In this document: positions 1,955 to 6,033 of the stretch, in pieces
Numbering within the stretch: the first letter of the stretch is position 1
Layout of the letters: each line of letters opens with the position of its first letter
Source of the DNA: a virus
Length of the DNA: 25,052 nucleotides
IMG/VR virus record: IMGVR_UViG_3300030329_001964
Span: 1-25,052 of that record
Direction: 5' to 3' (one strand)
Translations under genes and position numbers: made by a program
Notes under the pieces: generated by a model
Told to the model about the DNA's origin: nothing
The model's database searches: none
Seen by the model: only the letters and a program-made list of their open reading frames with translations

Positions 1955-2644
1955 ATGAACGATACCCTATTTAATAATGATAAAATAATACTTGATTTGT
2001 GTGGTGGTACAGGTAGTTGGAGTAAACCATACAAAGAAAATGGTTATGATGTTAGAGTTATTGATTTACAAGAATGGCTAGAAGATGAGTTGTGCTATGG
2101 TTGTGGTGATGGTAGTGGGGTGTTTAAAAAACATTGTGGATGCTTAGATAATGGTGATATTAGGCTGTTTAAAAAACCTAACGAGCAAATTTATGGTATA
2201 TTGTCAGCACCCCCTTGCACACATTTTTCTGTAAGTGGTGCTTGGTGTTGGGAGAAGAAAGGCAAAGAGCCATTATTAGAAGGTTTGTCAGTTGTTGATG
2301 CTTGTTTGAGGATAGTGTTAATAACTAAGCCAAAATTTTGGGTATTGGAAAATCCTGTTGGAAGATTAAAGCATTATATAGGTAATCCTAAATGCACATT
2401 CCAACCTTATCAATATGGAGATGCTTATAGCAAAAGAACTTGTTTATGGGGTGATTTTAATATGCCTAAACCTACAGATATAGTTGAACCAGAAATGGTT
2501 GAATATACTACTAAAAAAGGCGAAACCAAAAGAATGAGCAAGGTTAATTGGGAATCTTTTAAATTACCAAAAAATGAAAGAGCAAGATTAAGAAGCATGA
2601 CACCCTCAGGGTTCGCACAAGCATTTTATGAAAGTAATAAATAA
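1955..2644 (+). CDS. C5-cytosine DNA methyltransferase-like protein
   Basis: The 229-residue protein has the SAM-binding motif I (LDLCGGTGSWS, residues 13-23), an acidic motif II region (VIDLQE), the catalytic PPC motif of cytosine-C5 methyltransferases (SAPPCTHFS, Cys88), and an ENP version of motif VI (LENPVGR, 131-137). The C-terminus MTPSGFAQAFYESN is typical of short phage members. Classical motifs VIII-X are not evident, so the target-recognition part is minimal. A Cys cluster (C47, C50, C61, C63) lies between motifs I and IV and could bind a metal. The likely role is modifying phage DNA against host restriction. The family is well supported; target site and activity are unknown. Confidence 0.8.
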   Translation: MNDTLFNNDKIILDLCGGTGSWSKPYKENGYDVRVIDLQEWLEDELCYGCGDGSGVFKKHCGCLDNGDIRLFKKPNEQIYGILSAPPCTHFSVSGAWCWEKKGKEPLLEGLSVVDACLRIVLITKPKFWVLENPVGRLKHYIGNPKCTFQPYQYGDAYSKRTCLWGDFNMPKPTDIVEPEMVEYTTKKGETKRMSKVNWESFKLPKNERARLRSMTPSGFAQAFYESNK

Positions 2645-2660
2645 CAATGGAGAAAGAATA

Positions 2661-3098
2661 ATGACAAATAAAAAAGAAAGTATATATAATAAATTATACA
2701 AAGTTCAAAGAGAGATTGGGGCAATCAGTAAAGATTCTACTAACCCATTCTACAAATCAAAGTATTTTGATATAAATTCCTTAATAAAACAAGTTACCCC
2801 TATATTAGAAAAGCATAAGCTATTATTATTACAACCTATTAAAGATGGTGAGCAGTACAGTATTATTTTTGATTTAGATGGTGGCTCTGTTGAATCATCA
2901 TTAAAACTACCTACTGATTTAGATGCACAAAAAATAGGTTCAGCAATAACATATTATAGAAGATATACATTACAATCATTATTAGGATTACAAGCAGAAG
3001 ATGATGATGGTAATGTTGCATCAGGCAAACATAACTACAAAAAAGGCACAAACGAAGGCAATATATCTAGTTTTGAGTCTGATGGGTTTGGAGTATAG
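2661..3098 (+). CDS. erf: ERF-family single-strand annealing protein
   Basis: The frame is open from 2628, but the ATG at 2661 follows GGAG (2649-2652) with normal spacing, so the protein is 145 residues. It has the ERF signature: an N-terminal helix with KVQREIGAISKDSTNPFYKSKYFDIN, then GSAITYYRRYTLQSLLGL followed by the acidic EDDDGN (residues about 93-118). ERF proteins bind ssDNA as rings and anneal complementary strands. They circularise or recombine phage DNA, usually with a partner nuclease and an SSB. Both partner types are encoded nearby here. The C-terminal 25 residues are Gly/Ser/Asn-rich and end in the acidic, aromatic sequence FESDGFGV. Confidence 0.9.
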   Translation: MTNKKESIYNKLYKVQREIGAISKDSTNPFYKSKYFDINSLIKQVTPILEKHKLLLLQPIKDGEQYSIIFDLDGGSVESSLKLPTDLDAQKIGSAITYYRRYTLQSLLGLQAEDDDGNVASGKHNYKKGTNEGNISSFESDGFGV

Positions 3099-4846: not shown

Positions 4847-5010
4847 TGAACGACAAGAAGTGTAAAATGTGTGATGTTGTTTTAAGCAAATTAAATGCAA
4901 AAAAATATAATGGGTATTATAATTCCTATTGTAAAAAATGTGATGCTAAAAAACAAAGAGCATATTATGCTGAAAGAAAAAAGAAACAACAAGCGAGTAA
5001 GTGGTTTTGA
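4846..5010 (+). CDS. Small zinc-finger-like protein, 54 aa
   Basis: The start overlaps the preceding stop (TAATG at 4844-4848) and its TGA overlaps the next start (TGATG). It carries two CxxC pairs, CKMC (C6, C9) and CKKC (C29, C32), with ...YNGYYNSYCKKCDAKKQRAYYAERKKK. This is the common phage/HNH-associated zinc-ribbon layout: CxxC, about 20 residues with F/Y, CxxC, then a basic helix. It may bind nucleic acid. There is no catalytic motif. Function is unknown. Confidence 0.65.
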   Translation: MNDKKCKMCDVVLSKLNAKKYNGYYNSYCKKCDAKKQRAYYAERKKKQQASKWF

Positions 5011-5489
5011 TGTTTCTTGAAGTCAAAGTAAGAGTGAATGGCGAGGAGAAATGGGTTGATGCTCGAAAGTTTTTTGATTACTTAGTCAAAGAATATAGCA
5101 AGGTTAGCTATCAAGGAAAGAGTGTTAACCCATATCCCGATAGAGTTAATAAGTTTTTTGATGAAATGCCTGAAGAATTGATTGATATGTGGAGTAAAGC
5201 ATATCCAAATGTAGATATAAAGGCAGAGTGTGAGAAAGCTAGAGCTTGGCTTCTTACAAACACCAACAAAGCTAAAAAAGATTTTAAAGGATTTACAAAT
5301 CGTTGGCTTGGTAGAGCTTGTAATAATGGTGGGCAAACTATTATAAAAGTTGATAAGATTTATGAACAGCAACAAAGGCAAGTAGAGTATCAAAGAGAAA
5401 TGGAAAAGAATAGTGCTACTGATGAAGAAAGAGAAGAAGCAATTAAATCAATTAAAGAAATGTTAAAAAAGAGAAGAATAAATGGATAA
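5010..5489 (+). CDS. Replication initiation/helicase-loader-like protein, 159 aa
   Basis: The frame is open from a GTG at 5001, but the ATG at 5010 makes a TGATG overlap with the previous gene. The central part, PEELIDMWSKAYPNVDIKAE through ARAWLLTNTNKAKKDFKGF and TNRWLGRA (residues 54-103), matches the conserved C-terminal block seen in many phage replication initiators and helicase loaders. That block has a W..AYP.VDI..E..K...WL..N..K.KK....F...WL.R form. The N-terminal winged-helix part of such proteins is absent or very short. The C-terminus is a charged coiled coil (QQQRQVEYQREMEKN...). Its place after the SSB-like gene supports a replication role. Confidence 0.55.
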   Translation: MFLEVKVRVNGEEKWVDARKFFDYLVKEYSKVSYQGKSVNPYPDRVNKFFDEMPEELIDMWSKAYPNVDIKAECEKARAWLLTNTNKAKKDFKGFTNRWLGRACNNGGQTIIKVDKIYEQQQRQVEYQREMEKNSATDEEREEAIKSIKEMLKKRRING

Positions 5490-5697
5490 AGATACAAGAG
5501 AGTTAATAGAAGAAGCTAGGTTTAATTTAGAAGTTGCTAGAAAAGATAATGAAGTTTTAAATAAAAAAATAAGTATTGCAATTCAAGGTTTAGAAGTTAT
5601 AATTTCTATGGGCGACTCAATGATTGAATCAGTTGCTCAACAAACACTTCAAGAAATGCAGAATTGTGATCAAAATTCATCACAGAAAGAAGAATAA
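5482..5697 (+). CDS. Coiled-coil hypothetical protein, 71 aa
   Basis: ATG at 5482 overlaps the end of the previous gene by 8 bases. The protein begins MDKDTRELIEEARFNLEVAR and is almost entirely heptad-like helix to residue 60, with an acidic, Gln/Ser-rich tail ending QKEE. No catalytic or metal motif is visible. It is the last gene before the structured noncoding stretch, and its function is unknown. Confidence 0.6.
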   Translation: MDKDTRELIEEARFNLEVARKDNEVLNKKISIAIQGLEVIISMGDSMIESVAQQTLQEMQNCDQNSSQKEE

Positions 5698-5753
5698 AGA
5701 TAGTCGGATTTTTATTTTTTAAATGAGTATGTCAATCTCATCTGTGATGATAT
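5698..5753 (+). other. Hairpin-containing leader of the noncoding stretch
   Basis: Between the coiled-coil gene and the tRNA-like element there are two mutually exclusive hairpins, ATGAG (5723-5727) with CTCAT (5737-5741), and TCATC-TGT-GATGA (5738-5750). A T-rich run at 5709-5720 precedes them, not follows, so it is not a typical intrinsic terminator. They may be processing sites flanking the tRNA-like RNA. Confidence 0.35.
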
Positions 5754-5853
5754 GGGAGTTTTGGAACATAAGGTTCTTATTTTAATAGGGGGTTGCAAGT
5801 CCTCCTTTCATTTTATTCCCCCTTATGCAGAGGTTCGATTCCTCTGACTCCCA
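5754..5853 (+). tRNA. tRNA-like element with abnormal body (possible divergent tRNA-Cys)
   Basis: GGGAGTT (5754-5760) pairs with GACTCCC (5846-5852) as a 7-bp acceptor with one G-T pair, then a discriminator A. AGAGG-TTCGATT-CCTCT (5829-5845) is a textbook T-arm. GAAC/GTTC (5764-5776) can form a D-like stem, but the loop is 5 bases and lacks the usual GG. GGGGG-TTGCAAG-TCCTC (5788-5804) would give an anticodon arm with anticodon GCA (Cys). However, 10-11 extra bases precede it and a 24-base variable region with no clear stem follows. Alternatively ATAGGGGG pairs with CCCCCTTAT around a 25-base loop, a tmRNA-like long helix. Functional type is therefore uncertain. Confidence 0.5.
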
Positions 5854-5857
5854 CAAA

Positions 5858-5922
5858 AGCAAGGTGAAATTCACGATAAGTTGTAAAACGAATATATGAA
5901 AAACTAGCATCACTCCCTTGCT
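5858..5922 (+). ncRNA. Structured stem downstream of the tRNA-like element
   Basis: AGCAAGG (5858-5864) is perfectly complementary to CCTTGCT (5916-5922). Inside the 51-base loop GTGAA-A-TTCAC (5865-5875) forms a second short hairpin. No open frame of note lies here. It starts 5 bases after the tRNA-like element, so both may be parts of one transcript. No RNA family is recognised. Confidence 0.35.
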
Positions 5923-5946
5923 CATTATAAATAACAAGGAGAAAAA

Positions 5947-6033
5947 ATGTCCTCATCAGATATATTACTCTACCTTCTTATGATAGTAATAGCAATAGTC
6001 ATGTATAGGAGTCATAATGAACAGAAGCGATAA
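5947..6033 (+). CDS. Tiny membrane peptide, 28 aa
   Basis: ATG at 5947 follows AAGGAG (5936-5941) with 5 bases spacing, the same start context as confirmed neighbours. The 28 residues begin MSSSDILLYLLMIVIAIVMY and end in a charged tail (RSHNEQKR), so it is one membrane helix with a probably cytoplasmic C-terminus. It overlaps the next gene by 17 bases. Function is unknown; it resembles the 26-aa peptide gene at 3100 in design but not in sequence. Confidence 0.5.
   Translation: MSSSDILLYLLMIVIAIVMYRSHNEQKR

Follow-up and report, generated by a model that had tools for sequence, protein, structure and literature searches.

A tRNA-like sequence at positions 5754 to 5853 of a viral contig (IMG/VR record IMGVR_UViG_3300030329_001964; the whole stretch of 25,052 nucleotides analyzed is referred to as the window) raises the question of whether it represents an altered tRNA or an RNA gene of another kind. 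A sequence-only reading of this DNA had described the acceptor GGGAGTT/GACTCCC, a T-arm, and a discriminator A around an anomalous body, and inspection confirmed these letters and their order. We present evidence that the RNA very probably has the shape of the tRNA-like domain (TLD) of tmRNA. The full reading that we favor, to which we assign a probability of roughly 0.45, is that of a TLD-shaped, tmRNA-like RNA acting as a decoy or inhibitor of SmpB and trans-translation.

Fold of the RNA and comparison with tRNA

The RNA folds at −33.5 kcal/mol with a z-score of −3.34, and none of 200 shuffled sequences was as stable. Its minimum-energy structure is a three-way junction formed by the acceptor (5754–5759/5847–5852), a central helix designated H2 (5767–5773/5821–5827), and the T-arm (Table 1). 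The elements are ordered as acceptor, GG-bearing stemless D-loop, and H2 adjoining the T-arm, which is the layout of the tmRNA TLD. The H2 loop spans 47 nt in the window, where it is partly filled by a hairpin, and 13 to 28 nt in relatives, leaving no space for a tag reading frame. Position 3:70 is G-C and not the alanine pair G·U, while A73 is present. The discriminator is followed by CAA, and CCA is therefore not encoded; the string CCACAA is found in all aligned relatives.

Table 1. Features of the RNA locus and its gene slot in the window
Feature	Position	Strand	Basis or remark
Upstream ORF, 71 aa	5482–5697	+	Marks the gene slot; no family match
Upstream long-range helix, TCATCACAGA (5677–5686)/TCTGTGATGA (5741–5750)	5677–5750	+	Encloses a hairpin with loop GTCGGA (5703–5708); folds of relatives
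Whole RNA, putatively tmRNA-TLD-like	5754–5853	+	100 nt, without mRNA-like domain; fold, blind model match, 12-member covariation
Acceptor stem, 5′ strand GGGAGTT	5754–5760	+	Pairs with 5846–5852; seventh pair is T·G
Stemless D-loop-like segment TTGGAA	5761–5766	+	GG at 5763–5764, aligned in R1 matches
H2 helix, 5′ strand CATAAGG	5767–5773	+	Pair probabilities 0.85–0.86
H2 loop, enlarged in the window lineage	5774–5820	+	Comparison with L004/L005
Hairpin AGGGGG-TTGCAAGT-CCTCCT inserted within the H2 loop	5787–5806	+	Absent from L004/L005; the "anticodon arm" of the sequence-only reading
H2 helix, 3′ strand CCTTATG	5821–5827	+	Fold, covariation, pair probability
T-arm AGAGG-TTCGATT-CCTCT	5829–5845	+	Helix 3 of the covariation alignments; loop TTCGAYT in all members
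Acceptor stem, 3′ strand GACTCCC (5846–5852), and discriminator A (5853)	5846–5853	+	Sequence
Downstream ORF, 69 aa	6017–6226	+	Marks the gene slot; no family match

Three points of the sequence-only reading need correction. The D-loop GG reported as missing sits at 5763–5764, with a matching GG in relatives; what had been described as a long 5′ half and a 24-base variable region corresponds to the two strands of H2 and to its loop. Two competing central helices had been suggested, both of which are weaker than the overlooked H2 (CATAAGG/CCTTATG, pair probability ~0.86). One of them, ATAGGGGG/CCCCCTTAT, competes with H2 for one 3′ strand and costs 2.3 kcal/mol. The H2 loop contains the other, a hairpin that had been taken for a Cys-type anticodon arm. 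A GCA triplet is indeed present at 5795–5797 within a possible 7-nt loop, but the GGGGGTTGCAAGTCCTCC hairpin has no counterpart in the related loci L004 and L005, and the "GCA anticodon" therefore belongs to a lineage-specific insertion.

Descent from a Cys-type tRNA, whether insertion-bearing or decayed, is accordingly very improbable as an explanation of the RNA. The Rfam tRNA model (RF00005) does align over exactly 5754–5853, and acceptor, T-arm, and discriminator A are common to tRNA and the window RNA. However, the score of 22.7 bits lies below the cut-off of 29, and ARAGORN, a check proposed in the sequence-only reading, called neither a tRNA nor a tmRNA in the window. The combination of a D-stem, a 7-nt anticodon loop, and an above-cut-off tRNA score was not found there: the RNA has no D-stem and one hairpin where tRNA has two, relatives carry a single wide-loop hairpin without any anticodon arm, and compensatory changes, described below, have preserved the fold. 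A tRNA-Sec assignment was also rejected, the only matches being those in L008 and L009 with E values of ~3.

Relatives, covariation, and the gene slot

To find relatives, IMG/VR was searched with the neighboring protein (5001–5489), which yielded 28 loci, and a few more were gathered using an alignment. No relative of this protein was found in cellular genomes, and searches of cultured phages with two further window proteins gave no match. Between homologues of the two flanking ORFs, a shorter RNA of like plan (65 to 81 nt) is present in L004, L005, L007, L008, L009, L136, and L020–L024. These slot relatives have a 5- to 7-bp acceptor, a GG-bearing D-loop, one hairpin, a T-arm loop TTCGAYT, and a discriminator A followed by CAA. 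In L004 and L005, H2 (CATTAGG/CCTGATG) matches that of the window.

In an alignment restricted to seven short members, which left out the clade of the window as well as L007, 99.2% of cells were paired and nine pairs had changed on both sides, a result reached by none of 500 shuffles. When the window was included in a 12-member alignment, 13 of 17 pairs changed on both sides (50 cells; 0 of 500 shuffles), and all six H2 pairs varied in this manner. The larger alignment was fitted to the structure via a model; MAFFT alone misaligned the longer members. Compensating base changes in related phage contigs, which the sequence-only reading had proposed to look for, were thus found in all three helices, and they indicate that the fold is under selection. 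Neither of the outcomes it had named as telling against an unusual RNA, a lack of covariance support or an ordinary fold under a tRNA model, was observed.

A covariance model built from the seven short members (R1), which never saw the window, matched the window RNA end to end at 5754–5857 with 34.4 bits (E of 3e-5 in 130 kb). L004, L005, and L007 scored 34.5, 35.7, and 31.1 bits, respectively, and ten tRNA-rich phage loci reached a maximum of 26.0 bits, mostly remaining below 22. With filters off, a shifted placement at 5788–5857 (30.6 bits) was returned in which the T-arm and 3′ end were unchanged; the end-to-end placement is preferred because of its higher score and its agreement with L004 and L005. 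Model R2 also caught many ordinary tRNAs, and its hits were filtered with ARAGORN, with score alone not counted as evidence.

The same covariation bears on whether the locus is an attachment site, in which the phage would integrate by means of a host tRNA or tmRNA gene whose 3′ end is carried in its own DNA. This is the least probable of the alternatives, as such a site would have no compensatory changes maintaining H2 and its 5′ acceptor strand. Neither a tyrosine nor a serine integrase (PF00589, PF00239) was found in the window or in L001, L007, L010, L021, L022, L024, and L025, records that may be incomplete. Attachment is a likely explanation for L176:4521–4620 (Gordonia phage BetterKatz and relatives), where a tmRNA-like 3′ end adjoins an integrase gene, and possibly for L158. 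Ends of Mycobacterium prophage records match the L176 sequence as well, which is probably an attachment site in ssrA and a trap for TLD searches.

The main rival to a trans-acting RNA is a cis-acting element of the early transcript, either an RNase P or 3′-end processing site or a leader controlling the downstream small gene, for example via the pyrimidine-rich H2 loop. The RNA holds a fixed position between two small genes, and in L010, L012–L018, L025, L028, and L150 the slot is occupied by a plain or forked hairpin without a T-arm. A UUCCUUU-type loop is common to most of these hairpins and most TLD members, and the upstream GTCGGA-loop helix recurs in several of these loci. On the tree of the neighboring protein, types with and without a T-arm are interleaved through four changes, at least two of them forced by well-supported branches, a pattern compatible with the slot acting in cis. 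The records of L010 and L012 yielded no TLD outside the slot. However, compensatory changes have kept the T-loop, the D-loop GG, and the tmRNA-like layout, none of which a leader needs. The loop resembles an anti-Shine-Dalgarno sequence, but its pairing with its own downstream ribosome-binding site was not significantly better than with those of other loci (permutation P of 0.13, 16 loci), which gives no support past a generic complementarity. The loop motif is absent from L004 and L005. We consider a cis-acting element unlikely on balance, though the strongest competitor of the TLD-decoy reading.

Other features of the slot were recorded. The upstream helix joins the end of the upstream ORF to the region just before the TLD, ending 3 nt short of it, and is seen with changed pairs in relatives both with and without a T-arm. 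A promoter reading of the conserved TTGTGGTAATAT was dropped, since this sequence is the 3′ strand of that helix and lies too near the 5′ end of the RNA; a sigma-70 scan performed no better than shuffles. On the downstream side, an insertion of approximately 70 nt at 5857–5926, ended by GCAAGG/CCTTGC, separates the TLD from the next gene. It is missing from the 98%-identical L001–L003, and in L150 this site is occupied by a different insertion ended by GAGAGC/GCTCTC. A 28-codon ORF at 5947–6033, whose predicted product is the hydrophobic peptide MSSSDILLYLLMIVIAIVMYRSHNEQKR, overlaps the start of the downstream ORF at 6017.

Probable kinship with tmRNA, and message-less tmRNAs in viral contigs

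The window gave no match to the Rfam tmRNA model (RF00023), and the hallmarks of a standard tmRNA, namely an mRNA-like domain, a tag reading frame, and pseudoknots, were not found in its RNA of 100 nt in all. Its relative L007, by comparison, matched that model end to end (39.7 bits, E of 1.2e-12), with 23 nt taking the place of 312 central positions; L021 scored 20.1 bits and other slot members 14.1 to 20.8. A model built from 16 canonical message-less tmRNAs (R3), the class whose covariation was analyzed, gave 57.0 bits for L007, 31.2 for L021, and 28.2 for L020, against a maximum of 29.5 for tRNAs, so that L021 stands just above the tRNAs. On the window, R3 returned 17.9 bits in a shifted placement, which is within the tRNA range. 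The alanine pair G3·U70 is absent from most of the window family, G·U being seen only in L007.

Because its own letters give no tmRNA match, we infer the descent of the window RNA from its shared slot, its shared fold, and L007. On sequence comparison, the family extends from L007, which is close to the canonical class, to the window as its most distant member. Through this family, the RNA would be a phage-encoded tmRNA relative without a message, in which the TLD is retained and a hairpin stands in place of the mRNA-like domain. A resemblance to the tRNA-like domain of tmRNA had been remarked on in the sequence-only reading, and the TLD layout, the covariation, and the kinship of L007 bear this out. 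A permuted tmRNA was rejected, as the pieces stand in the standard order.

Pattern scans led to canonical cases in L227, L262, and L164, which scored 66.7, 67.8, and 64.7 bits, respectively, above the Rfam tmRNA cut-off of 47; in L227, 304 positions of the model are replaced by 3 nt. The contigs of these three encode a terminase, a ribonucleotide reductase, or a DnaB-like helicase. A further pattern combined an acceptor, a tmRNA-type D-loop GGNTTCGAC, and a T-arm, allowed no more than 48 nt of intervening sequence, and did not require U70. With it, a scan of IMG/VR, in which some contigs may be misclassed as viral, returned at least 120 stretches. Among 121 loci listed, 119 TLDs had a paired acceptor, at least 81 of them distinct and 60 to 86 nt in length. 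All 81 distinct TLDs among the matches listed carry G3·U70 and A73, and CCA is encoded in 30. Every one of 31 tested records passed the Rfam tmRNA cut-off with such short matches, and SmpB was not detected in any of these 31. Applied to cellular genomes, 257 Gb in total, the identical pattern gave 12 hits, of which Candidatus Poribacteria account for eight. The canonical class is common in viral contigs and seldom seen in cellular genomes.

The viral cases, L273–L390, are spread over many unrelated contigs (e.g., L298:4019–4084 and L283:6437–6500), in addition to L227:7355–7427. In Candidatus Poribacteria (L391–L394, L396, L397, L400, and L401), a closely similar, conserved message-less tmRNA of ~82 nt is present, and this lineage may be without a tag altogether. 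One viral record (G032, that of L278) holds a full-length tmRNA (record positions 77588–77979, 392 nt, 94 bits) alongside one that is message-less (46486–46567, 82 nt, 65 bits).

Such genes are easily missed, because ARAGORN returned nothing for L227 or L262, just as for the window, and the window family scores below the tmRNA cut-off. A 2025 survey of 97,179 unique tmRNA genes contains only nine that are unpermuted and message-less, with DS6A as its named phage example (PMC11915505). We found no description of the breadth of message-less tmRNAs in viruses in the open-access literature, a search with most subscription journals outside its range. The window RNA would be a diverged variant of a kind already known and recorded as rare.

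Several known RNAs invite comparison. Canonical message-less tmRNAs (L227, L262, L164, and L298) resemble the window RNA in their acceptor, stemless GG-bearing D-loop, H2 adjoining the T-arm, A73, and lack of a message. They possess the D-loop GGNTTCGAC, G3·U70, and an above-cut-off Rfam score, whereas the window has none of the three and L007 lies in between. Bacterial tmRNA (RF00023) has the TLD layout in common with the window RNA, which is without the mRNA-like domain, pseudoknots, and tag. Message-less mitochondrial tmRNAs (in jakobids and others) and two Mallomonadaceae plastid genes of ~65 bp also have no tag reading frame; by description, they are set apart from the window in being organellar, with the mitochondrial genes usually permuted (PMC11915505). 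The TLD-only tmRNA of Mycobacterium phage DS6A (Mao et al. 2009, as related in PMC4131195 and PMC11915505) is likewise described as a phage-encoded TLD with little else and no tag reading frame. Relative to that description, the window RNA is set apart by the loss of G3·U70 and by its enlarged H2 loop, within which a hairpin is nested.

Proposed role in trans-translation

That the window RNA works as a decoy or inhibitor of trans-translation is a tentative proposal, which we rate slightly short of even odds. In this role, the RNA would be cut out of an early phage transcript, would bind SmpB and/or enter stalled ribosomes instead of host tmRNA, and would thereby damp or divert trans-translation during infection to the benefit of the phage. 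The cited accounts of DS6A state that its TLD-type RNA inhibits host tmRNA, and that tmRNA is strongly inhibited by a similar TLD molecule whether or not it can be charged, perhaps through titration of SmpB (PMC4131195; PMC11915505). Alanine charging is probably dispensable in the window family, because most members are without G3·U70. No SmpB gene was found in the searched records of the family. The lack of a message, the lack of an SmpB gene in those records, and the loss of the alanine identity pair from most members fit an uncharged decoy. Earlier suggestions of a tRNA decoy or tRNA-like regulatory RNA survive in this form as the best functional guess and are offered as a proposal.

Alternatively, the RNA may serve ribosome rescue and not inhibition, freeing stalled ribosomes untagged with the SmpB of the host, as proposed for message-less mitochondrial tmRNAs; survey authors consider that the mitochondrial RNA may still help with incomplete mRNAs (PMC11915505). 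The retention of G3·U70 with A73 in 81 of 81 distinct canonical cases among the matches listed, where the pattern did not demand U70, suggests that charging matters in that class. Apart from L007, however, the window family has lost this pair, and the sole cited functional test of such an RNA reports tmRNA inhibition, as related in PMC4131195. We judge rescue improbable for the window, well behind a cis-acting element.

Returning to the decoy proposal, a broader picture can be sketched with somewhat less assurance than the proposal for the window itself: message-less tmRNAs may be widespread, nearly virus-specific phage RNA genes that suppress or hijack trans-translation, with the window lineage having shed the alanine pair to become an uncharged decoy. 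If these RNAs act like the DS6A-type molecule, many phages carry an RNA countermeasure against ribosome rescue.

TLD-like RNAs were also noted at other loci. Two phage contigs each hold a pair of them, L123 at 1445–1515 and 2965–3036 (minus strand) and L118 at 1614–1693 and 2243–2297 (minus strand); these are without the alanine pair and are not called by ARAGORN. In a cultured phage, Microbacterium phage HerculesXL (OP068330.1), L156:262–328 is a candidate unannotated TLD-like RNA with G3·U70 that adjoins the DNA polymerase gene, its score being near those of the best tRNAs. Finally, Pseudomonas phage vB_PaeS_FBPa45 carries an unannotated permuted tmRNA of betaproteobacterial type at L157:316–707, with scores of 111 to 119 bits.
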